This document shows positions 2,108-51,481 of a stretch of DNA of 59,711 bases, in pieces (within the stretch, counting starts at the first letter, position 1; the number at the start of each line of letters is the position of its first letter). Origin of the DNA: Microcaldota archaeon (GTDB lineage: Archaea; Micrarchaeota; Micrarchaeia; Micrarchaeales; CABMGC01); assembly GCA_021817325.1 (NCBI GenBank), contig JAKAVK010000023.1, forward strand, positions 1 through 59,711, given 5' to 3'. The notes below the pieces were generated by a model. It saw nothing but the letters and a program-made list of their open reading frames with translations. It had not been told where the DNA came from and ran no database searches. The translations under genes and the position numbers were made by a program.

Positions 2108-4546
2108 TTATCCCTCAGTTGGCCCACTGTACCCTGCTGGGTACACCACCTTACCTGAAGAGGTAAAGATAACATATGCTGTATTCTCGCTGCTATACTC
2201 TCCCTGCGCTGCCAGATTGTAGTTCAACACCGAATTGGCATCGGGAAGGTAGTATTCGCCATATCCTGGTGCCTGGTAGAAGCCAGATCCGTACCACGGT
2301 AGCAGCGCAGGTATGTCACCTTGGGGCACTGTGTATGGCTTGCTAATGCTGCCAGTGCCTTTCCCTTCGAGCTGCTGCTCGGTATTTAGTGCGGACTGGT
2401 ATGTAGCATCATTCGAGCTGTTTATTTGGTTTATCTGAGTCTGGGAAAGAGGCACTGCAGGGGTAACTAACTCAAGTATTGTTGTATATTTGCCGTCTGA
2501 GTAGCTGTAGGTTACACTCACAACCGTATCTGCAGTTGTGCTTGGCGGTGCTACAATTCCCTGCAGTGTCTCTGTTGTTGGGCTTGATGGAAGTGTTGTG
2601 GTAGTAGATGTCGTTGATGTTGTCTGAGGCAATGTAGGCGCAGTTGTAGTTGTAGTTGTAGTTGTTGGCAGGGATGTGCTGCCTGTGAAGGGATCTACTT
2701 TGGTGTACACTACTGCATCCGACGGCGTGACCACAACCCACCATCCTGTATCCGTCTCCTGCGCTAATGATCCTATGGGAGCAGCATTGCTTCCGTATAC
2801 CTTGCCAACATTCTGGGCAGTTACTGTCTGCGGGCTGCCTACGTAACTTCCGTGTCCATTGGTGTTGGCAGGCATGGAAAGTTCCACAGTTGTTGTGGTA
2901 GTAGATGTCGTTGATGTTGTCTGAGGCAATGTAGGCGCAGTTGTAGTTGTAGTTGTTGGCAGGGATGTGCTGCCTGTGAAGGGATCTACTTTGGTGTACA
3001 CTACTGCATCCGACGGTGTGACCACAACCCACCATCCTGTATCCGTCTCCTGCGCTAATGATCCTATGGGAGCAGCATTGCTTCCGTATACCTTGCCAAC
3101 ATTCTGGGCAGTTACTGTCTGCGGGCTGCCTACGTAACTTCCGTGTCCATTGGTGTTGGCAGGCATGGAAAGTTCCACAGTTGTTGTGGTAGTAGATGTC
3201 GTTGATGTTGTCTGAGGCAATGTAGGCGCAGTTGTAGTTGTAGTTGTTGGCAGGGATGTGCTGCCTGTGAAGGGGCTGGAGTTCCTGCGTATAAGGGTGC
3301 GCCAAGGTGTCATTATAAACCACTTATCACCAGTAGTATTCACTGCCAGTGAGCCTGGTGGAGCAGCATCCCTTCCATCTATCTTTGTGACATCGCCTGA
3401 GGTTACCTCATATGCGCTGCCAGAGGATGAGTGGGTTGACATGGCTTTCATAAACGGAATAGGCATTCCACATAGGGCAGCAGGAGCTACGATGCAGGAG
3501 AAATGGGCTGAAGGGACTGTGACTGTTCTGTCTATATTTATGCCATCGCCTTTTAGGATGGCCGTTACCTCTGTACCAGAAAGAGAGCTTTCTGTCCAGG
3601 TTTTGTTGAATATGTTATAATTAAAATAGGCATACTGAGAAGTTAGATTTAATATAGCCGTAGTATTGGAATCCGTATTGCTGTTCCAGTATGATACAGC
3701 AAAAGATCCAGACTTCCCGGCCAACCCTGCAGTGATAGTGCCATTGAGACTAGCTCCTGCATTTATCTCAAAAGCACTTCCCTCTACGTTTAACTGGCGG
3801 CCTGGCAATGCTATATCCAATCCTCCCCCAAGGCCCACATCGACTGCAACACCGGAGTCCTTTGGGTTATTAGTATCAAGCAATAAGTCAACTGAGGCGA
3901 TTAAATTAAACCCTATTACGATATTCCACGTGCCATTGGAGTACATAGCCCCTAGAGGAAGAAGGCTAGTTATAAGACCCTCTGTGGATGGCGGCGGGCA
4001 TGCCTTAGACATGAACGAAGGACTTAAGCTTGCATTGAAATTTTTTTGAAAGTCGTTGTCCAGCGTTTGCGCCTGGGCGCAGGTCATCCCTATCACATAA
4101 GCGGTTGAGTCTGTTCCTTGAGGGGACGTAAAATGGAGCTGGTTAGGCGACGTTGCCAGGTTATACAGACTAAGATTTACATCTACGCTTATTGGCGGCT
4201 TGCCGCTCTGGTTAAGCGTTGCAATGCTAGTGATGGTACTTGTCGGTTCACCACCGACCGTTGTTACTGCGCTTGAAACAGATTTGGGTACGTATACCTT
4301 GGTGTCTGTCACAATGACATCTGCAGTATCTGCTTCTTGCGCATGAAAACCTGTGGAAAACAGCGTATCGACATGCTGGGCTCCGGGTATCATCATTGCA
4401 GCTGCAACAGCCACGCTAGTAGCCCTGTGAAGCGCTCTGTCCGCAACTCTAGCTTCCCATGCCCAATGGCCTGCTGCGTGCTTATTGCTTTCGCCTCGCA
4501 GCAATTCTGCCATCCTGGCGGGATCCTTGAACCTCATGCTCCTCAT
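2108..4546 (-). CDS. Large secreted/surface protein with Thr-rich linkers and tandem repeats
   Basis: ORF with TTTTTTAPTLPQTTSTTSTTTTT linkers and two near-identical 97-aa repeats; start set at the Met near 4546, just downstream of a TATA-like sequence. Confidence 0.7.
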   Translation of the reverse strand: MRSMRFKDPARMAELLRGESNKHAAGHWAWEARVADRALHRATSVAVAAAMMIPGAQHVDTLFSTGFHAQEADTADVIVTDTKVYVPKSVSSAVTTVGGEPTSTITSIATLNQSGKPPISVDVNLSLYNLATSPNQLHFTSPQGTDSTAYVIGMTCAQAQTLDNDFQKNFNASLSPSFMSKACPPPSTEGLITSLLPLGAMYSNGTWNIVIGFNLIASVDLLLDTNNPKDSGVAVDVGLGGGLDIALPGRQLNVEGSAFEINAGASLNGTITAGLAGKSGSFAVSYWNSNTDSNTTAILNLTSQYAYFNYNIFNKTWTESSLSGTEVTAILKGDGINIDRTVTVPSAHFSCIVAPAALCGMPIPFMKAMSTHSSSGSAYEVTSGDVTKIDGRDAAPPGSLAVNTTGDKWFIMTPWRTLIRRNSSPFTGSTSLPTTTTTTAPTLPQTTSTTSTTTTTVELSMPANTNGHGSYVGSPQTVTAQNVGKVYGSNAAPIGSLAQETDTGWWVVVTPSDAVVYTKVDPFTGSTSLPTTTTTTAPTLPQTTSTTSTTTTTVELSMPANTNGHGSYVGSPQTVTAQNVGKVYGSNAAPIGSLAQETDTGWWVVVTPSDAVVYTKVDPFTGSTSLPTTTTTTTTAPTLPQTTSTTSTTTTLPSSPTTETLQGIVAPPSTTADTVVSVTYSYSDGKYTTILELVTPAVPLSQTQINQINSSNDATYQSALNTEQQLEGKGTGSISKPYTVPQGDIPALLPWYGSGFYQAPGYGEYYLPDANSVLNYNLAAQGEYSSENTAYVIFTSSGKVVYPAGYSGPTEG
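2667..3248 (-). repeat. Two tandem near-identical 291-bp repeats within the surface protein gene
   Basis: ggcagggatgtgctgcctgtgaag begins at 2667, 2958 and 3249 (spacing 291 and 291). Protein unit: VELSMPANTNGHGSYVGSPQTVTAQNVGKVYGSNAAPIGSLAQETDTGWWVVVTPSDAVVYTKVDPFTGSTSLP. Confidence 0.9.
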
Positions 4547-4627
4547 GCAACTATATAAGCATTTTGTATATTTAAGACCTTTTAGACATTTTTTGCCTAA
4601 AAATAGTAAGAATTTAAATATTTTTAG

Positions 4628-5716
4628 ATGGATTTGGATAACATGCGCAACTTGTATGGAAGCGGCAGAGGCCCGGCAGCAAAGCTCGATCTTAAAGACA
4701 GAAAGATACTTGCAGCACTTGGGGAGGATGCCAGGGCTCCACTCAGCCGCATAGCAAAGGAAGTCGGCCTTTCCAGGGATTCCGTAGAGTACAGGATAAA
4801 CAAGTATATGAAGGAAGGCATACTGGGTAATTGCATCACTGTTGTGCGCTCGCAGAGGATGGGATATGGAATGACCCTCCATCTCTATCTAAAGTTAAAC
4901 AACCCATCACCTGATACCGAGAGGTCATTGATAGACATGGTGTCCGAGATGCCCTTTACAGTGGCGGTGTGGAAGTTTTTCGGTGCCTTTGACATGGAGG
5001 TTACCTTTATAGCAAAGGATCCCTCACAGGCCAGTTCTATAATCTCGAATATTCTCTCGATGGCAGGCAAGTCGGTGCAGGATTATGAACTTGCAGTCTG
5101 GACCAAAAACTATCTGAGTGGCTCTTTCCCGCGAAGCTTCCTGAAGGGGTTGGACGATACATATTATATCTCACCGAGAGCACAGGGTTACTACTTTGGC
5201 GGTACTAGTGGAAATCCCCTTAATTTCAATCCTAAGTTATCGCAGGCAAATTATGTGCCCGATAGCAAGGACATGAAGATACTCAAGATAATCGGTGATG
5301 ATGCTCGCACCCCGCTCATAGATATTGCAAGGAAGGTTGGTATGTCCCAAGGCATGGTGAGATACAGACTAGAGGCCATGAAAGAGAATCTGATAGTGGC
5401 CTTCGTGCCTACACTTAACTACGAGGCACTAGGTTACACTATGTATGCACTGCTGCTGAACATCCATGTGTTAAAGGAAGAAGACGATAAACGCTTGCAG
5501 GAGTTCTTTTACAACAACGATTCTATCTTATGGGCCATAGGTGCCATAGGCAGATTCAATGTGCTTGTTAATGTATGCTGTAGGAAGGAATCAGAATTCC
5601 AGAAGATGCTCAACGATATCAGGCATGAGTTCCCTGACAGCATAAAGGAATATGAACTACTCCATGCGGTAGAGGAATACAAGTATACATATACCCCAGA
5701 ATGCATGTTCAGGTGA
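4628..5716 (+). CDS. Lrp/AsnC-type transcriptional regulator with two HTH-AsnC halves
   Basis: LDLKDRKILAALGEDARAPLSRIAKEVGLSRDSVEYRI and DSKDMKILKIIGDDARTPLIDIARKVGMSQGMVRYRLEAM, i.e. a duplicated Lrp module. Confidence 0.8.
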   Translation: MDLDNMRNLYGSGRGPAAKLDLKDRKILAALGEDARAPLSRIAKEVGLSRDSVEYRINKYMKEGILGNCITVVRSQRMGYGMTLHLYLKLNNPSPDTERSLIDMVSEMPFTVAVWKFFGAFDMEVTFIAKDPSQASSIISNILSMAGKSVQDYELAVWTKNYLSGSFPRSFLKGLDDTYYISPRAQGYYFGGTSGNPLNFNPKLSQANYVPDSKDMKILKIIGDDARTPLIDIARKVGMSQGMVRYRLEAMKENLIVAFVPTLNYEALGYTMYALLLNIHVLKEEDDKRLQEFFYNNDSILWAIGAIGRFNVLVNVCCRKESEFQKMLNDIRHEFPDSIKEYELLHAVEEYKYTYTPECMFR

Positions 5717-6011: not shown

Positions 6012-7586
6012 ATGAAACCATTATTTTTAGTTGTTATTATAGGAATCTTGTTTATATTAGTAATCCTTTACTATTTTGGTGTACAGCCAACTAAAACAGA
6101 GACATTTTTTAGAAATACAAGTGTCGAGTTGTTGGCAAATTATAGCAGGCAACCACTTAGCATAGGCTATTATGCAATAGGGACCATTAAATTTTTATGT
6201 GTAGCAGGTAAAGTCCAATACTGTTATTTGCCGAATAGGAATAATTATACATATAACAATTTTACAGTAGATGTCAATAATAATTTTAGCGAACTCGTTT
6301 ATCAATATAACATAACTCTGAAGAAAGTACCATTAGTTGTAAATCCACCACAAAAATATATTTTTACAGTTCTGAATTATTCTTATGGTAACTTTAATAT
6401 CGGAATAATTCCTTTAGTCAACATATCAAACATATCATCCTTTGTACAAGATTATGGCGTGTCGAATAGCAAAGTAAATTTTAACTTTAAAAACCAGTTA
6501 CAAGCTGGTAATAGTTACATTGCAACTATACAAGTAAGTAAGAACTTTTTAGAAAACTATCCTGAAGTGTGCATCGACCAAGACTGCCAAATGCTTGGGT
6601 GTATAAGCACAGTTGCAAGCAGTACAAGCTCAGATTTGACCCCATTAAATATGACTATACAAGAAACAGTTACTCCAGAAAAAACGTATGGGGTCTATTG
6701 TTCCCTACCTGCCGATGTAGATTGGCTGAGTGCACTTTCTTGGATAAACCAGAATGTAGGACTAAATGCGCCAAAGGTGCTGGCATGGTGGGATTATGGT
6801 GATTGGATAAATTGGTTTGGAAACAGCAGCAGTGTAATTAGAGGAGAGAATCAAACTCCGCAGAAAGACTATCAAGTTGCAGCTGATCTGGTTTTGACAC
6901 AGGAAGACAATTTCACACCTACAACTTTAGTAAACTTCATGGATCAGAATAAGGCACAATATGTATTATTTGATGACCAACTTGTACAAAAATGGGGTGC
7001 ACTAGATTTCTTAGCATGCACATACATAAATCAAACAAGCGCACAGTATGCAGAACAGGCAGGCACATTAGATGGTAGAGCATATGCGCTAGGAACATCA
7101 AACTGCGAGCAGAGGCACGATCCTGCATATATTTTCGTAGGTACAAATCCCAATTCATATAACCATTGTGTTATTGGAGGAAATGTAACAGCTAACTATA
7201 TAACAGGACAAGTTGTAATAGGCGACGCAGTAAATGGCACGTATTACTGTGTGCCCATATCAGTTCTAACTAATAGGACAGAGGGATATTTACTTAATGA
7301 TAACGGAACAAAATCTAACATCATAATAAATCCATCTATCACTAGTGGCACTGTAGAAGTTCAGGGGCAGCAATATTTGATTTTCCTCTTGCTTTATATG
7401 CCAAATGGACCCAACGACACGATAACTAATGCGCCAACTCAGTTCTATAGCTCAGTATATTATAAGGGATTTTTCCTAGGGACTCTGCCAGGATTCAGAC
7501 AAGTTTACCCTAAAGTGAATGGGACTAATTTTGTTAATTCCACCCAGAAAATAAGGATATATAAACTTGTTAACTATAGCGGTTGA
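6012..7586 (+). CDS. STT3/AglB-like protein: soluble WWDYG domain with a single N-terminal TM
   Basis: DWLSALSWINQNVGLNAPKVLAWWDYGDWINWFGNSSSVIRGENQ carries the WWDYG motif of oligosaccharyltransferases; only one TM at the N-terminus. Confidence 0.75.
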   Translation: MKPLFLVVIIGILFILVILYYFGVQPTKTETFFRNTSVELLANYSRQPLSIGYYAIGTIKFLCVAGKVQYCYLPNRNNYTYNNFTVDVNNNFSELVYQYNITLKKVPLVVNPPQKYIFTVLNYSYGNFNIGIIPLVNISNISSFVQDYGVSNSKVNFNFKNQLQAGNSYIATIQVSKNFLENYPEVCIDQDCQMLGCISTVASSTSSDLTPLNMTIQETVTPEKTYGVYCSLPADVDWLSALSWINQNVGLNAPKVLAWWDYGDWINWFGNSSSVIRGENQTPQKDYQVAADLVLTQEDNFTPTTLVNFMDQNKAQYVLFDDQLVQKWGALDFLACTYINQTSAQYAEQAGTLDGRAYALGTSNCEQRHDPAYIFVGTNPNSYNHCVIGGNVTANYITGQVVIGDAVNGTYYCVPISVLTNRTEGYLLNDNGTKSNIIINPSITSGTVEVQGQQYLIFLLLYMPNGPNDTITNAPTQFYSSVYYKGFFLGTLPGFRQVYPKVNGTNFVNSTQKIRIYKLVNYSG

Positions 7587-14382: not shown

Positions 14383-14425
14383 CATTCGGATCGTTGTATA
14401 CCTTATGCTGGAAGACGAAGTTCGG

Positions 14426-15985
14426 CTAAAGCCGCTGCTGTCCGTACGCAGTGCTGCTCCTTGCATCCAGCGCCCTGTTTATCGATCTTATCGCACTGAG
14501 CATCTTCGTCTCCCTCTGCCTGGAGATGAATAGGTAGACCTGGTCCTTTGTGCCGTTTGCTATCAGGATATAGACTTCTCCCTCGGCGAACCTGCCTGTC
14601 CTCCCTCTCCTCTGTATGTTCCTTATCTCGTTTGGTATGGCCTCGTAGAAGAGGACAAGGTCCACTCCAGGTATGTCTATGCCCTCCTCGCCTATCGAGC
14701 TTGCCACGAGCACTGAAAACAGGCCGTTCCTGAAATCCTCTATGGTCTTCTTCTGCTGCTCCTGCGTGACACCCTCCTTTTTTCCGACGAAGGCCCTGGC
14801 AGAGAATCCGTTATTGTTCAGGAACTCGACTATCATCTTTATCGTTGATCTGTACTGCGCGAAGACTATCATGTGCCTGTCTTTGTAGTTCTTTATAACA
14901 TCGAGCAGAGCGACTATCTTTGGATGTTCCTCGCCGTTCCTGACCGCAGTGCTTGCAGCCGCCCTTGCGGCTACCATCTTCGGACTCTTGAGCAGGCTCT
15001 CGAGGCTCCGTGACTTATCCTGCCTTGTATATAGAGACTCGATGTATGTGTGGAAAGGGTATATCCCTTCGACCACCAGCAGGTCGTATGCATGCGCCAG
15101 GTTCAGGAGCTTAGAGTAGTTGAACATCGCAGCGAACTTGTAGTTGCTGCTGGTCAACCTGCCTATTTGGTTCCCAAGCTCTATCAGCCTGCCTTTTGGT
15201 ATGTTGTCAAAATTCCTAAAATGGAACAGGCCGAGCCTGTGCAGCCCATCAAGGCAGGCATCTATCTCTGGCCTAAGGAGCCTGGCCATTTCATTTATCC
15301 TCTGACTGAGCTCCACAGAAACGATGTGTACATTGTTTGGCATAACGTACTTGACGACATCCGGATCTGTAGATACCCTCATCTCTATATGCCTTATATC
15401 GAGCGTGCGTGCTATGGCGTTGATCTTCTCTGCCTTGCTGCCTGGGGATGCGGTGAGCCCCGCCATAAGAATCCCGCGAACCGTGCACTCGTTTGCTATG
15501 TATGTGTACGCATACTTCCCAACAGCCCTATGGCACTCGTCGAATATCACCGCACCGTATCCGTCAAGGGAGAAGACCCCTCCCTTGAGGTCGTTTGCTA
15601 CCGTCTGCGGCGTTGCGACCACCACCTTCGAGACGGTATGCAGGTCCTTCCTCTTGGCCTTTCCAAGCGAGCCTGTGAGCAGCAACAGCTCCCCCTCGCC
15701 AAGATCGAGCAGCTTGTGCATGGTATTGTAATGCTGCTCGGCAAGCGGCTTTGTAGGCGCCAGGAAGAGCGCCTTGCGCCTGCCTGCAAGTGCTGTGGCT
15801 ATTATCCCTGCCCCTATTATGGTCTTGCCAAGGCCTGTGGGCAGTACTACCATGGTATTGCCATGCCTCCTTACGGCGTTTATTATGTTGAACTGGTACT
15901 CTCTATACTCTATGCCTTCGAGCTTCATGAAGCGCGCGGCATCCCCTAGGGCGTACCAGCGGCCATCGACTGCCATAGCCATCAA
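14426..15985 (-). CDS. SF2 helicase, Hef/FANCM-like helicase domain
   Basis: YREYQFNIINAVRRHGNTMVVLPTGLGKT, FDECHRAVGKYAYTYIA, LTASPGS, QRRGRTGR; no C-terminal nuclease. Confidence 0.85.
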   Translation of the reverse strand: MMAMAVDGRWYALGDAARFMKLEGIEYREYQFNIINAVRRHGNTMVVLPTGLGKTIIGAGIIATALAGRRKALFLAPTKPLAEQHYNTMHKLLDLGEGELLLLTGSLGKAKRKDLHTVSKVVVATPQTVANDLKGGVFSLDGYGAVIFDECHRAVGKYAYTYIANECTVRGILMAGLTASPGSKAEKINAIARTLDIRHIEMRVSTDPDVVKYVMPNNVHIVSVELSQRINEMARLLRPEIDACLDGLHRLGLFHFRNFDNIPKGRLIELGNQIGRLTSSNYKFAAMFNYSKLLNLAHAYDLLVVEGIYPFHTYIESLYTRQDKSRSLESLLKSPKMVAARAAASTAVRNGEEHPKIVALLDVIKNYKDRHMIVFAQYRSTIKMIVEFLNNNGFSARAFVGKKEGVTQEQQKKTIEDFRNGLFSVLVASSIGEEGIDIPGVDLVLFYEAIPNEIRNIQRRGRTGRFAEGEVYILIANGTKDQVYLFISRQRETKMLSAIRSINRALDARSSTAYGQQRL

Positions 15986-16019
15986 TACATATTGTGCTTA
16001 GCCCTTAAAAAGAAGTGGC

Positions 16020-17324
16020 CTACTGCCCGCTAATCTGCTGGCTCTGGACCGGCGCCGGATATGGCTGCTCCTTCCTGCCTCGGCCTTTTGTCAAATGCAG
16101 GATTAGGATTATTGCCCCGATCACTATAAGGAAGAGCGTCATATAAAAGAGGTACTGCACAAGCCCTGGGCCGCTGGACCGTGTGCCGCTGTTCGCATTA
16201 CCCCCGGAACCGATGCCTGTAGCACTGGAAGAGTTGGTAGACGGGGTCTGGTTCTGCTGCAGTTTCTTATACAGGTCAAGCGAGATCACAGTGCTATTTC
16301 CCACCTGGGTCGTGTTGAGCAGCTCCACATAGTATTCTTGATAACTTATGTTGAGTGGCACGCTGGTTCCGCTCCTTAGTTCATAGGGAGTGTCGTCAAT
16401 AAGCACGTTAGCGTATCCTGCATAGGCATTCAGATAGACCACCTCGAAACCGATGCCGCCTACCGTGGTCGAAATCGATCCGTTGCCGAATCCCAGTATA
16501 TCTACTCCTTCCTGCGCGGTGCTGTTTGCCGATACCACTGATGTAACATAGGCCGTGGTCGTAGTGTTGGATTCTGAAGTCGTATTCGCTGCATTGGTGC
16601 TGTTGCTTGGGTTGCTCTCTGTAGAGTTTGTAATGTTTACCGCAGGGGTGTTTGAAGGCGCACTTCCACGGCCCTTCAGGGCTATTACAGTGATTGTGGA
16701 AGTGCCAGTCGCACTCTCATTTGCCGAGTCCGTTACATTGCCTAGGAACGAATATACGCACCCGACTTCCGACGGGCTTGGCGTGAATACGGCAACCTGG
16801 ACGTTGCCTATCGAAGACGTCGAAGGGATAGGGCACGCAAATGTATTCGAGGTTACAGTCCACGTGTAATTGTAAGGCGATGCGCCATTCTGCGGTATCA
16901 GCTCGGCGTAGGTAGAGTTTCCAACGCTTACTGTGCTGCTGCTCGGCGTGACACTGGCCGTAAGCGTCGGATTGGCATACACCTCAATCGCCGCGCTTCC
17001 AGTGTCGCCCTGAGTGTCTGATACGTCAAACGATATGTCATAGGCGCCTACGGTAGTCGGGGTGAAAGTGCAGACTGATGAGTTGTCAAGGCAGCCAGGC
17101 ATGTAGAAGAGGCCCGATTGGCCAGGACCCTGCAGGTACCACGAGTACTTATAAGGCGGTGCCCCACCCCCCACAGTGAAATGCAGGGTTATGGCCCTGC
17201 CGACATCCGCCTGTATCGTATAATCCTGCTGCGGGGTAACGTATATGACCGCATTCTGCGCTATTGCCAGCATGGGCACGAGCAGTAAGGCCAGCAAAAT
17301 GGCAATCAGCGGGACTTTGTGCAT
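16020..17324 (-). CDS. Secreted PKD/Ig-like surface protein with C-terminal TM anchor
   Basis: Signal peptide, beta-rich PPYKYSWYLQGPG / SPYNYTWTVTS repeats, Asn/Ser/Thr-rich stalk, C-terminal TM. Confidence 0.75.
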   Translation of the reverse strand: MHKVPLIAILLALLLVPMLAIAQNAVIYVTPQQDYTIQADVGRAITLHFTVGGGAPPYKYSWYLQGPGQSGLFYMPGCLDNSSVCTFTPTTVGAYDISFDVSDTQGDTGSAAIEVYANPTLTASVTPSSSTVSVGNSTYAELIPQNGASPYNYTWTVTSNTFACPIPSTSSIGNVQVAVFTPSPSEVGCVYSFLGNVTDSANESATGTSTITVIALKGRGSAPSNTPAVNITNSTESNPSNSTNAANTTSESNTTTTAYVTSVVSANSTAQEGVDILGFGNGSISTTVGGIGFEVVYLNAYAGYANVLIDDTPYELRSGTSVPLNISYQEYYVELLNTTQVGNSTVISLDLYKKLQQNQTPSTNSSSATGIGSGGNANSGTRSSGPGLVQYLFYMTLFLIVIGAIILILHLTKGRGRKEQPYPAPVQSQQISGQ

Positions 17325-46938: not shown

Positions 46939-47268
46939 GTGGAAATCACGGAGTACAGGATAGTGACCGACTGCCCTGACAGGAAGGGGGTCATAGACAA
47001 GCTAATCGACGCGGCTGCCAGAGCAGGGGCCGGCGGATACGGAAATTACAGCAGGTGCGCGATAATAACAAGGGGCTACGGTACATGGAGGCCGCAGCGC
47101 GGAGCCAGGCCGAACATAGGCAGGGTCGGAAGGATCTCTAAAGTGCCATCGGTAAGGATCGAGATGTCATGCCCAAAGGGAAGGATAGATGCCGTATGCA
47201 AAGCAATTAGAAAAGCGCACCCTTATGAGGAACCTGTAATATACTCAATAATGGTCAAGTACGGTTAA
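46939..47268 (+). CDS. YqfO/NIF3-insert (CutA/PII-like fold) protein
   Basis: GVIDKLIDAAARAGAGGYGNYSRCA... KAIRKAHPYEEPVIYSIM. Confidence 0.75.
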   Translation: MEITEYRIVTDCPDRKGVIDKLIDAAARAGAGGYGNYSRCAIITRGYGTWRPQRGARPNIGRVGRISKVPSVRIEMSCPKGRIDAVCKAIRKAHPYEEPVIYSIMVKYG

Positions 47269-47272
47269 TGAA

Positions 47273-47347
47273 GGGCATGTAGTGTAACCTGGATAGCACG
47301 GCAGCTTCCGGAGCTGTTGGTTGCGGGTTCAAATCCCGTCATGCCCG
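47273..47347 (+). tRNA. tRNA-Arg (CCG)
   Basis: Acceptor GGGCATG/CATGCCC, anticodon loop TTCCGGA, T-loop TTCAAAT. Confidence 0.93.
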
Positions 47348-47350
47348 TTT

Positions 47351-47395
47351 TTGCTAATGCTGGGGATAGGAGTTCAACTCTCCTCGGGCCCACCA
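47351..47395 (+). pseudogene. tRNA 3'-half with encoded CCA (attachment-site-like remnant)
   Basis: TTGCTAA + TGCTG + GGGAT + AGGAG-TTCAACT-CTCCT + CGGGCCC + A + CCA; the order matches a canonical tRNA from the anticodon loop to the 3' end. Confidence 0.75.
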
Positions 47396-47439
47396 AAAAC
47401 AAGCCTCTAGGCCTGCGGGTTCGGTTCCGCAGGACGGGC

Positions 47440-48336
47440 ATGACTGGAAGCAACGGAAAGGCGGGTTCGGGGTGCGTTTCCGATATGCTTCCGAACGGTC
47501 GAAAGTCCGAAAAACAGGGTTCGGGGTTGGCTTTTCAGGACTTTCTAAAACAGGCAGAGCTGCTCAGCGGCAGCGTTTCAAAGCATCAGTTAGAGCAGGT
47601 GCGCGCGATAATATCGCAGGCGCACGAACGCCGCTTTAGAAGGCGAAGAGAGCCGAGGTACGGAACGATAAACAAAGGCTTCACTGAGCCTGAGCTGCAA
47701 CGCTTCTTTAGAGCGATTGCCAGCGAGAAGTTCGCTCTTCTTTTCAAATATCAGGCATACATGGGTCTCCGAGTGGGCGAAGTCAGCAAGTTGCACATAA
47801 GCAACATCGACTTCGACAAACGAGAGCTAACATTGAAGAGCGAAAAGTCGGCGCAGCTCGACGCGCTGATAATTCCGCTTGAATTGTTCAAAGAAACAGT
47901 GGAATTTATGAATAAACATTCTGCTGAGATTAAGTTGGCCGACGGCTACATTTTCTATAAGGAAAATGATTACGGCCATACTGGAAATCTCCACATAGAC
48001 GTGAATTATATAAGAAACGTCTTCCGTGAAATAATACAGAATGCGAGTCTGGATCAGACCTACGCCACAACAGAAGAGGCGTATTCAGACCATCAGCCTA
48101 GAAGCCTGCATAGGCTTACGACTCATAGCCTGCGCCACTATGCCATTACGCACTTTGCGAAATCAACTAATGGCAACATAGTCCTAGCTTCTAGGTTTGC
48201 TAGGCATTCCAGTCCGTCAACTACGATGCGCTACATAGCGAAAGACAAGGATGAGCTATACAAAAATATAGACTTCGCCTTTAGCGACAAGATAACGCCG
48301 TTAAAGCGTCTGTCCAAGTCTATTCAGCAAAAATAG
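47440..48336 (+). CDS. Tyrosine recombinase / integrase
   Basis: GLRVGEVSKL, HSLRHYAITHF, ARHSSPSTTMRYI; open frame extends upstream into tRNA-Arg(CCG) at 47317. Confidence 0.9.
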   Translation: MTGSNGKAGSGCVSDMLPNGRKSEKQGSGLAFQDFLKQAELLSGSVSKHQLEQVRAIISQAHERRFRRRREPRYGTINKGFTEPELQRFFRAIASEKFALLFKYQAYMGLRVGEVSKLHISNIDFDKRELTLKSEKSAQLDALIIPLELFKETVEFMNKHSAEIKLADGYIFYKENDYGHTGNLHIDVNYIRNVFREIIQNASLDQTYATTEEAYSDHQPRSLHRLTTHSLRHYAITHFAKSTNGNIVLASRFARHSSPSTTMRYIAKDKDELYKNIDFAFSDKITPLKRLSKSIQQK

Positions 48337-48338
48337 CT

Positions 48339-49565
48339 TTAATCAGAAAACATTTTCTTTTCTTCTGATTCGATGATGTCATCCTGCGACTGTTTTGTTG
48401 TTTCTTTTGTTTCTATAAACTTCTTTATAGCCTTTGCAAGATATTCTCTAATGGATTTGTTAGTTTCTTTTAATTTTTGCTCCGTTTGACTATTAGAGCC
48501 GTGCGCCAGTTTACTTCTTAAGTCGTACGCTTCTCTAACTTTCCCAAGAATTTCATATTTCTCGTTCTTCTCATTCCCAATAAACTGCGCCGTCCTCGCC
48601 GCCACTCCATACCCTGTAATCTTAAACAATGATTCCAGTGCTATTACATTATCAAGTAGTTTATCTTCTTCATTTTCTCGTTCATTTGCATAGTTGAATC
48701 TGCGCATAGCAATAGAAAATTCATTCCAATGGTTCTTTATAAGAGGCCAAAGTCTGACGATTTCATTAATATCCTCTTGATTAATAGCAACGACAGGTGC
48801 TTCAGGTCTCAAATTATGAGCAGGCCCTATAGACCAGTTCTGCCATTCGTCAGGCCATCCCTTTGTTTCCAATATTATTGAATTAAATCCTAAATTCCCA
48901 CTTTTAACCAGTCTAAAAGCCAAAGTAACCATATCAAATGTCTTCTTTACTTCAAGCCAGTTTATATCGGTTTTATTATCGTATAGTTTTTCTATTATAA
49001 AATTTATGCTTGATAGCTCTATGGTAGATATTGTTCTTGTGAAATTTTGTTCTGCCATTAGAAAAAGTTTGTTGAAGTCATTTTCAGAGACCCTCCTAAT
49101 TATCAATCCGTCCTCCAAATCTATTTTCTCCACTTTACAGTCAGCCTTCAGATTTAGTATGGGCACACTCGCCTTTGCCATATTGCTTGGCATGAAATAG
49201 AAATCGACTAGTCTGTAATATAGTTCATCAAATAGCTGCTCTTCAAACTCAAAATCTTCTTTCCTATCTAGGTAATTATATAGAAATGTAAATACAAAAT
49301 TTGCGCTAAACACTTCGGTAAACTGATGGTTTGCCTCTAGTTTAGGACTTTTCTTTTTTCTAATAAGTTCTATAAAGGTATTAAGGCATTCATCATGCTC
49401 TTTTAGAGGCCTAATCTGCAAATACTTTATTTGAGCGAATATAGTTATTTCAGGCAATAGTTGACTCCTTCCAAAAGAAGTTATATTTCCATATTGGTCT
49501 CTATTGGTAACCATTTTCTCCTTTTCATTTGGTATTCTCTCCTTAGATGCCGCCTCCTTAAGCAA
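48339..49565 (-). CDS. Apea-like HEPN domain protein
   Basis: C-terminal KLLDNVIALESLFKITGYGVAARTAQFIG...VREAYDLRSKLAHGSNS matches the Apea-like HEPN pattern (R-x4-H). Confidence 0.7.
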   Translation of the reverse strand: MLKEAASKERIPNEKEKMVTNRDQYGNITSFGRSQLLPEITIFAQIKYLQIRPLKEHDECLNTFIELIRKKKSPKLEANHQFTEVFSANFVFTFLYNYLDRKEDFEFEEQLFDELYYRLVDFYFMPSNMAKASVPILNLKADCKVEKIDLEDGLIIRRVSENDFNKLFLMAEQNFTRTISTIELSSINFIIEKLYDNKTDINWLEVKKTFDMVTLAFRLVKSGNLGFNSIILETKGWPDEWQNWSIGPAHNLRPEAPVVAINQEDINEIVRLWPLIKNHWNEFSIAMRRFNYANERENEEDKLLDNVIALESLFKITGYGVAARTAQFIGNEKNEKYEILGKVREAYDLRSKLAHGSNSQTEQKLKETNKSIREYLAKAIKKFIETKETTKQSQDDIIESEEKKMFSD

Positions 49566-49662
49566 ACTAAGCGACTTTTTGATAAAAGCTAGATACTTCT
49601 CTCTAAGCTCTAAGTAATCTTTATACCTCTCACTCCCATTTGCAGCCAGAAAATAACCTCTG

Positions 49663-50094
49663 CTATACTTGTATTGACACCTTCTTATAAGCTCTCTGCG
49701 TCAACGACATGACATATACTGGGCAACTCATAATCTCTCTAAACTTCCAAGCTCTCTTTACATTAGGCTCTAGCTCACCGCTCCCAGCTATGGCAATAGC
49801 CACATCTGGCTTTATCTGAATAATCTTCTGAAAGCTTTTCCACTTTACTAGCTTATGGTGGTCGTATTCTATGGCTACTCTGAACTTTCCTTTCCTAGCC
49901 ACGAGGTCTATCCTTCCAGTCCTCTCTGGCTTATCCTTCATCTTAAAAATAGGGTATTCCCTAGTTGTGTAATAGCCGTTCTTCCTGAATATCATCTCTA
50001 ATTGATTGATTGTATCATTATGCTTTATTTCAGGACTAACTACTTTTGTTATCTGTTCCACAATCCCTTCAATCTCGCTATATGTCATTGGCAT
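49663..50094 (-). CDS. PD-(D/E)XK-like nuclease-fold protein
   Basis: RTGRIDLVARKGKFRVAIEYDHHKLVKWKSFQKI (D..ExD arrangement). Confidence 0.6.
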   Translation of the reverse strand: MPMTYSEIEGIVEQITKVVSPEIKHNDTINQLEMIFRKNGYYTTREYPIFKMKDKPERTGRIDLVARKGKFRVAIEYDHHKLVKWKSFQKIIQIKPDVAIAIAGSGELEPNVKRAWKFREIMSCPVYVMSLTQRAYKKVSIQV

Positions 50095-50839
50095 TCCATC
50101 TATTTATCGGTTCAAAATATCCGCCAATATTCAAACTCCTTCCAACGAATGTCGAACTGTATTGAACAAGATAATAATACAAAAATCCAAGCGCAGCAGG
50201 CTTTCCGTTTGCAAGCGCAAAGACATCATCATTCTCCCAATTCAGCAGAAGTCCTTTCTTAATCAATATTCCTCTATTAAGAATTACAATGAGGTCAAAA
50301 ACATCAGCCCAACCACTGGTATTTATTTCGTTTTTAATAGTATCCCAAGTTGCGCCTTCATACGCAAAAACAATTCTCAATGGCCTGTTCAAAACTGGCC
50401 CAGAAGCAATAACCGCCCCTCCATTGATAGTCAAATCTTTCACTCTGGATAGAGTTCTCGCCGCCTTCCCTAATTCAGCAGAAGTCAGATTTGATTTTAC
50501 TTCAATCACGCTAAACACGCCTTCTGCTAAGTAAGTTTCTATCTCACCGTATGTAATAGCCGGTGCATCATCTCTTATTATCACAACATCCAGTTGCCCT
50601 GTCGAATTATTTCTCGTATCTATTATCTCTCCTTTCGTAACTTTTAGTTTTAATGGCAGCACCTTTGCCAAGAAATTTCTGCAAAAATGCTCTCTGTTTG
50701 TACCTATATCTGTAGAATTTTCCTGTCCTCGCGACCTTTCATACTCAGCCCACAGAACAGTTGCCGTATTCTTAAAATATTCTTTCAATATCGGCTCGCC
50801 TTGTGAACCATAAGTAATATTTACATCGGGCATTTTCAC
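50078..50839 (-). CDS. DUF6602-like protein, PD-(D/E)XK-like
   Basis: NREHFCRNFLAKVLPLKLKVTKGEIIDTRNNSTGQLDVVIIRDDAP...EGVFSVIEVKSNL (D..ExK). Confidence 0.7.
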   Translation of the reverse strand: MKMPDVNITYGSQGEPILKEYFKNTATVLWAEYERSRGQENSTDIGTNREHFCRNFLAKVLPLKLKVTKGEIIDTRNNSTGQLDVVIIRDDAPAITYGEIETYLAEGVFSVIEVKSNLTSAELGKAARTLSRVKDLTINGGAVIASGPVLNRPLRIVFAYEGATWDTIKNEINTSGWADVFDLIVILNRGILIKKGLLLNWENDDVFALANGKPAALGFLYYYLVQYSSTFVGRSLNIGGYFEPINRWNANDI

Positions 50840-51276
50840 ACCTTTACCAGCATATAGTCATCTTTATCCGTAGTTAATTCCTTTATACTTTCCATTATCT
50901 CTTTGTTATAAGTTACCCAAGTTACAGGCAAGCCATATTTCTCCTTCTTCTCTGAATTAGCTTCAATGGCATCTTTTCTAGCCGACGTTTGTATCTCATA
51001 AGCTCGGATAGCCTTGTCACCCCATAGATACTTCTTCCGCTTATCCACAGGGTAAGCTATCAAGTCGTGAGCCTCCCGCTCCCTAGGCGCGATAACAAGC
51101 ATGTTGCTTTCGTGCAATTTCTCTATGGCTTTCGTTAGAATCTGCTTGTGCAAGTCCGAGCCTGCGTTTAGCTCGTCCTTTAGGATGGCCGCAGGATCAA
51201 CCCAGCGTCGTCCCGCCTCGGTAAGAGCGTAGCTCTTCTTGGCCTTCCTCCCCGGCCTATAAATCCTAAAACCCAA
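50836..51276 (-). CDS. Winged-helix plus PD-(D/E)XK-like protein
   Basis: KKSYALTEAGRRW (wing) and EAHDLIAYPVDKRKKYLWGDKAIRAYEIQTSARKD (D..ExQ); overlaps the next gene by 4 nt; TTG start. Confidence 0.55.
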   Translation of the reverse strand: MGFRIYRPGRKAKKSYALTEAGRRWVDPAAILKDELNAGSDLHKQILTKAIEKLHESNMLVIAPREREAHDLIAYPVDKRKKYLWGDKAIRAYEIQTSARKDAIEANSEKKEKYGLPVTWVTYNKEIMESIKELTTDKDDYMLVKV

Positions 51277-51481
51277 AGGAATATCGTATCAAGCGTGAAG
51301 AAAACAACCTGGTGATAGCAAGTAGCGCTATTACTATCCTTATCTTATCGTTCCGATGTAGCTCAGGCATGATAAATCCCATATGCTTTAGCTGTCCGAT
51401 GAGAACGCTGATCTTCGGACTGGCAATAAAGGGATAGCCAGGGGCAAGTAACTGGCAAGCAGCCTCATAGAATTCCGGCAT
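51266..51481 (-). CDS. Small protein, possibly the frameshifted N-terminus of the downstream wHTH protein
   Basis: 71 aa ORF overlapping 50836..51276 by 11 nt. Confidence 0.35.
   Translation of the reverse strand: MPEFYEAACQLLAPGYPFIASPKISVLIGQLKHMGFIMPELHRNDKIRIVIALLAITRLFSSRLIRYSFGF

Follow-up and report, generated by a model that had tools for sequence, protein, structure and literature searches.

A probable remnant of an integrative element in an archaeal tRNA-Arg(CCG), with a NucC-like nuclease and a candidate HEPN ribonuclease as separate cargo

Do neighbouring nuclease-like genes behind an integrase form one defence system, or are they a mobile element and its passengers? The question is raised by five minus-strand ORFs (here A to E) between positions 51481 and 48339 of the window, by which we mean the whole stretch of 59,711 nucleotides analysed, part of the 991-kb draft genome of a Microcaldota archaeon. 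An earlier note on this DNA had read four of the encoded proteins (B to E) as a single multi-nuclease defence module on an integrase-linked island. All five ORFs are present and the first four overlap within the described range of 4-17 nucleotides (A/B by 11, B/C by 4 and C/D by 17); the gap between D and E is 97 nucleotides. The tyrosine integrase at a tRNA is present too, on the plus strand. By reading, the flanks are host genes: the tRNA is preceded by PolB-like and PCNA-like genes, and the ORFs are followed by a trehalose-phosphate synthase-like gene. In the following feature list, frame stands for the genes shared with related elements and cargo for the genes between them:

tRNA-Arg(CCG), 47273..47347, plus strand: identified by ARAGORN and Rfam; the element's left attachment site.
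Tyrosine integrase, 47317..48336, plus strand: PF00589 at 1.3e-13, archaeal XerA at 7.5e-14.
Gene E, 48339..49565, minus strand: cargo at the D/integrase junction; probable HEPN ribonuclease; phrog_28161 at 3e-4.
Gene D, 49663..50094, minus strand: small nuclease-like frame protein (GRIDLVARKGKFRVAIEYDHH); 80% identical relative in a sister element.
Gene C, 50078..50839, minus strand: cargo at the ATPase/D junction; DUF6602, NucC-like PD-(D/E)XK nuclease; PF20247 at 6.7e-25.
Gene B, 50836..51276, minus strand: C-terminal remnant (wHTH and D...ExQT domain) of a HerA/FtsK-like ATPase of about 640 aa.
ORF A, 51266..51481, minus strand: probable deletion scar; weak match to L086 9603-9992.

The genes had been described as visibly AT-rich, and this is true for E (GC 0.35), C (0.39) and D (0.40) but not for B (0.47) and A (0.45), which are near the host level; the sequence around the ORFs has a GC content of mostly 0.49-0.55. 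Elsewhere in the window, a protein of 924 aa (2108-4882) has long tandem repeats rich in Thr, is probably surface-exposed and lies near a 524-aa AT-rich ORF (6012-7586, stretch GC about 0.34) that has neither tRNA nor integrase close by.

The reading frame of the integrase is open, and the catalytic R, HxxR, H and Y are all visible in its translation. Its annotated start falls within the tRNA and the true start is probably near 47484-47524. The integrase family is frequent, with members in 34 of the 59 genomes of the host's family, and it is linked to tRNAs, in support of the earlier term integrase-linked island: at 34 of 55 testable loci the integrase lies at most 700 nt behind a tRNA of the same strand, and 17 tRNA types are involved. 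Exact repeats of 25-40 nt of the tRNA were found at eight loci (L043, L046, L086, L102, L115, L175, L179 and L188), and the last 29-30 nt of tRNA-Arg(CCG) are repeated exactly at the right ends of the sister elements L086 and L038. Of the three features of a tRNA-integrating element, the window has the integrase and the tRNA, and the tRNA repeat is present in relatives; a search of the window for the right attachment repeat found none. The window element has probably lost its right tRNA-repeat end. Directly behind the tRNA-Arg, at 47357-47395, is a hairpin-like stretch (GGGGATAGGAGTTCAACTCTCCTCGGGCCCACCA) that resembles the T-arm and acceptor end of a tRNA and has similar counterparts in L038, L087, L088 and L112; it may belong to the attachment region or be left over from an older tRNA.

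When the fetched loci were searched with ORFs A-E, the closest sister element found was L086 (in G190:C11), which lies behind a tRNA-Arg(TCG) and has an integrase 80% identical to that of the window. Its order is integrase, D, ATPase, without gaps. In a DNA alignment, three segments of the window (47264-48340, 49709-50055 and 50839-51216) are collinear with L086 (1775-2901, 2924-3270 and 3311-3687, respectively). What separates them differs: 1369 nt of the window, containing gene E, correspond in L086 to a gap of 23 nt, without E, between its integrase and D, and 784 nt containing gene C correspond to 41 nt. Gain of C and E in the window is a simpler reading than their loss from L086.

The same comparison defines gene B, which aligns at 75-76% identity with the C-terminal ~140 residues of the L086 ATPase. 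This protein of 637-665 aa directly adjoins the D relative and has hydrophobic N-terminal/transmembrane stretches, a P-loop (GTTGQGKS) and a HerA/FtsK-type domain (DUF87 at 2.8e-7, over the cut-off), as expected of an FtsK–HerA ATPase, while the P-loop ATPase domain is missing in the window. As only the tail B aligns, and as the window's genome has no other ATPase match at E<=1e-6, the ATPase gene here lacks roughly its front two thirds. The wHTH and the D...ExQ domain that had been noted for B are indeed present, but they are what is left of a large ATPase at its C-terminus, and B is not an independent gene; a single frameshifted wHTH gene made of A and B is also ruled out by L086. ORF A has a stretch, ELHRNDKI, that matches a small membrane ORF upstream of the ATPase in L086 (weakly, with a phmmer E of 0.002 and a blastn E of 0.023) and, as judged from these alignments, A-B is likely a deletion scar. 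An origin of ORF A as an integrase fragment was considered too, with chance-level matches only.

Gene D shares 80% identity with its L086 relative over 137 residues. The motif for which it had been called an ExD protein is strictly conserved as D-x12-E-x-D, with D63, E76, D78, K84 and K86 invariant in an alignment of seven relatives, but profile and structure-sequence searches found no match to a known family or PDB structure, and the single-sequence AlphaFold model is too poor to use (pLDDT 39). Relatives of D are present in 20 of 301 genomes of the phylum and relatives of the ATPase, some of them distant, in 50 of the 301; searches of viral contigs with D and with the ATPase tail found no relatives. 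By sequence comparison, B and D belong to the frame of a mobile element, and this frame is found elsewhere without C and E. In all elements D is AT-rich (0.33-0.40) despite its fixed position, with the surrounding ATPase and integrase mostly host-like.

Gene C, noted earlier as a DUF6602-like ExK protein, is confirmed as a DUF6602/NucC-like PD-(D/E)XK protein. It matches PF20247 (DUF6602) with 87 bits (cut-off 27; E-value 6.7e-25), the PADLOC models PD_DExK (5.6e-29) and NucC (2e-11) and the NucC of Serratia (PDB 7zgv, 1e-5), and the alignment has the catalytic residues D84, E113 and K115 in place. A profile built from C and eleven relatives, including a CBASS-linked member, spans nearly all of NucC (2.9e-51). 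C is thus like the NucC nucleases in its PD-(D/E)XK core with D, E and K and in its full-length profile match, but unlike them in two respects: a reading of the adjoining ORFs showed no cyclase, and the C-terminal GTVPA stretch of the NucC-type proteins in L009 and L015 reads VGRSL in C. PADLOC found no named system at the locus, as the earlier note had anticipated; C alone matched, to single-protein models, and A, B, D and E did not.

DUF6602 is rare in the phylum (2 of 296 genomes). It occurs on bacterial plasmids, in some cases alone, and has varied neighbours: in Polaromonas it adjoins a CBASS cyclase, in Rhodococcus it is found with ThiF and Mov34/MPN genes, and in Acinetobacter it has an Abi family gene on one side and a SEC-C gene on the other. 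The closest relatives of C that we found are from such Abi–DUF6602–SEC-C loci, which have no annotated cyclase. One such trio is on an Acinetobacter baumannii plasmid (L006:2214-4327) and a matching trio is on a contig of a Fusobacteriaceae MAG (L016:265-2378). Both encode what is apparently the same C relative (equal phmmer scores), suggesting that the Fusobacteriaceae contig is probably misbinned. The Abi family protein precedes the DUF6602 gene on the plasmid and, with Abi_2 presumably a HEPN family, this HEPN-type gene beside a NucC-like gene is a parallel to E and C.

Gene E has a TTG start (with an alternative ATG at 49514) and the motif RSKLAHG at 48518-48498. It had been called an Apea-like HEPN protein, and the Rx4H motif (R350-H355) is there, embedded in an ALESLF…YDLRSKLAHG layout in a helical C-terminal region, which to us looks like ApeA-type HEPN domains and is shared with HEPN ribonucleases of the ApeA-like and Abi_2 kinds. 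E does not, however, match HEPN_Apea (PF18739), for which the search gave nothing up to an E-value of 10, nor an Abi family, and its N-terminal 250 residues match nothing known. Its single significant match is phrog_28161 (3e-4, residues 294-391), of no annotated function. Searches of 301 phylum genomes and of plasmids, phages, viral contigs and GTDB contigs gave no relatives, and the single-sequence AlphaFold model (pLDDT 43) is too poor to use. Given the motif and one weak profile match, with no PF18739 match, no relatives and a poor model, E is probably, and not certainly, a HEPN ribonuclease. A match to E in G054 was spurious; of the three loci with PF18739 matches in the phylum, two were inspected and contain, by reading, an IS605-type transposase and an unrelated protein.

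What else is found at the positions of C and E was read from sister elements, a set chosen by presence of the integrase or of D. Where ATPase and D were both seen, the usual order is ATPase, D, opposite-strand integrase and tRNA; L175 differs, with its integrase at the other end. The junction between ATPase and D, occupied by C in the window, contains Schlafen AlbA_2 proteins in L178 (3.7e-18) and L179 (1e-20) and genes with no assigned family in L177, L180 and L184, and is empty in L086, L175, L176 and L181. The junction between D and integrase, occupied by E in the window, contains TdeIII and a methylase in L177, an Eco57I enzyme in L176, Vsr, Eco47II and an m5C methylase in L179, NgoPII and a methylase in L186 and NgoPII in L188 (where a second gene was not scanned). 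On the same side of D, in pieces where the integrase is outside the fetched sequence or a mere remnant, there are a D12 methylase and DpnII (L182), a methylase and BsaWI (L178) and a D12 methylase with a helicase and an SMC-like ATPase (L187). Further elements with the same integrase family carry OLD and Eco57I (L043) or GmrSD and MvaI/BcnI restriction-modification (L050), and some cargo near such integrases is not defence-related at all: porphyrin genes, a chlorite dismutase and a CBS protein. In a hand-picked and non-independent set, cargo is AT-rich, with a median GC of 0.37 against 0.48 for the ATPase and 0.46 for the integrase (p ~1e-5).

Three further proteins are worth recording on their own account. 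The 211-aa AT-rich cargo product of L180:5356-5988, between D and integrase, has no Pfam match and an H...C pattern (LLGHG, SISCSSA) that by eye resembles caspase-like peptidases. L175, an element with a tRNA repeat of 25 nt, encodes at 14410-17028 an 873-aa protein that combines Mrr_N, GmrSD_N and Schlafen AlbA_2 domains. A RelA/SpoT-domain protein (L112:2735-3889, 5.2e-19) immediately behind an integrase of the same family is possibly another kind of cargo.

We consider it likely, with a probability of roughly 0.7, that the locus is the decayed remnant of an integrative element in tRNA-Arg(CCG), with C and E as separate defence cargo. The last part is suggested by the relatives, as the same junctions there hold Schlafen and restriction-modification genes, by the likeness of C to NucC and by the Abi family gene next to DUF6602 in Acinetobacter. 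The earlier view of the island as defence-related is in line with this: among the cargo of related elements are restriction-modification, OLD, GmrSD and Schlafen genes. The idea of one functional multi-nuclease system made of B, C, D and E fared differently, and we now regard it as very improbable despite the shared strand and tight spacing of these genes: B is what a deletion left of an ATPase, the frame genes B and D are found elsewhere without C and E, these two occupy different junctions where relatives hold other genes, and the co-occurrence check proposed with the idea found C together with E at the window locus only.

ATPase, D and whatever lies between them could instead make up a HerA-type defence system of modular build in which the effector can be exchanged: NucC-like C in the window, and proteins of the Schlafen/AlbA kind in L178 and L179. 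The copy in the window would then be crippled by loss of the ATPase. The middle gene is co-directional with its neighbours and overlaps or nearly touches them in the window, L177, L178, L179 and L180, D is as AT-rich as cargo, and the only PDB match of the L086 ATPase is TdpA (9e-4), which we take to be a HerA-like protein and part of an anti-phage system. But the middle gene is missing in L086, L175, L176 and L181, the ATPase is also found without D (L189-L194), and ATPase and D travel with integrase and tRNA, as expected of mobility genes; moreover, ICETh1 transfers DNA with a HerA-like pump and a nuclease (PMC5365140). We find this reading, the chief rival of ours, doubtful. It is rather unlikely, too, that C and E serve the element and not the host, by addiction or by exclusion of rival elements: they are element-borne and within the frame, and restriction-modification genes, which can work as addiction modules, could have that role in the relatives, but no antitoxin-like partner is visible beside C or E, and such a function overlaps host defence and does not exclude it. 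That C is a true NucC, activated by cA3 from a CBASS cyclase or a Cas10 encoded elsewhere in the genome, is very improbable. Type III CRISPR with NucC is known (PMC8682760), and the homology of C and the cyclase next to a DUF6602 gene in Polaromonas would fit; that no cyclase was noticed in the ORFs adjoining C or is annotated in the loci of its closest relatives found, and that the GTVPA stretch is replaced, speaks against it.

With the remnant reading retained, the nearest described relative in layout is ICETh1 of Thermus thermophilus (the TdtA element), in which tRNA repeats of 47 bp enclose genes for a HerA-like ATPase, a NurA-like nuclease and a type IIG enzyme (PMC5365140). Compared with L086, both have a tyrosine-type recombinase and direct repeats of a tRNA 3' end, a HerA-like membrane-located ATPase with a small nuclease gene nearby, and a neighbourhood that includes a type IIG enzyme and an N4/N6 methylase. 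In contrast, ICETh1 is bacterial, its nuclease is NurA-like whereas D could not be assigned to NurA by the searches made, its transfer is described whereas the window family is compared by gene layout alone, and the window copy has no ATPase front. HerA-like ATPases have been reported from archaeal islands (PMC4158269), and the cryptic integrated elements of Thaumarchaeota (PMC6563490) are likewise small, with a tRNA-linked integrase, restriction-modification cargo and no viral hallmark noticed; unlike the window family, with its fixed frame of ATPase, D and integrase across genera, they have no signature genes. A brief search of the open literature found no description of this frame. We tentatively raise the possibility that these elements are an undescribed archaeal family that integrates into tRNAs, with a fixed frame and two dedicated junctions for defence cargo, and with a modular unit of ATPase, middle gene and D in which the effector (NucC-like DNase, Schlafen-type) is exchangeable.

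The history and function of the locus could then have been as follows. Of this, the comparisons establish the frame, the truncation, the protein family to which C belongs, the presence of two genes that L086 lacks and the defence genes carried by relatives. A small element would have entered tRNA-Arg(CCG) of this small-genome archaeon via its tyrosine integrase, its frame made of integrase, D and a membrane HerA/FtsK-like DNA-pumping ATPase whose C-terminal end carries a wHTH and a nuclease-like ExQ domain. In the intact element, the HerA-like pump and D would move or maintain the element's DNA, as in ICETh1. AT-rich cargo would have been placed at the two junctions of the frame: C, a NucC-like DNase, between ATPase and D, and E, the probable HEPN ribonuclease, between D and integrase. 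A deletion would then have taken most of the ATPase together with the right attachment site. On sensing of a virus or of a rival element, DNA would be the target of C and RNA that of E, in an abortive-infection type of response; the neighbourhood shows no sensor gene for C or for E. The two would act independently and protect both element and host, a defence role that we infer by analogy with the cargo of the relatives. The element has probably lost its own mobility while C and E were kept open, which fits selection for the cargo, but recent decay is also possible.

The locus carries a warning: what appears to be an operon of several genes on an island may consist of a frame and unrelated cargo, and only comparison with sister elements reveals this. 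Archaea with genomes of about 1 Mb may gain antiviral genes via small elements that insert into tRNAs and have defined places for cargo, and its position at such a place makes an orphan gene like E a testable defence candidate.
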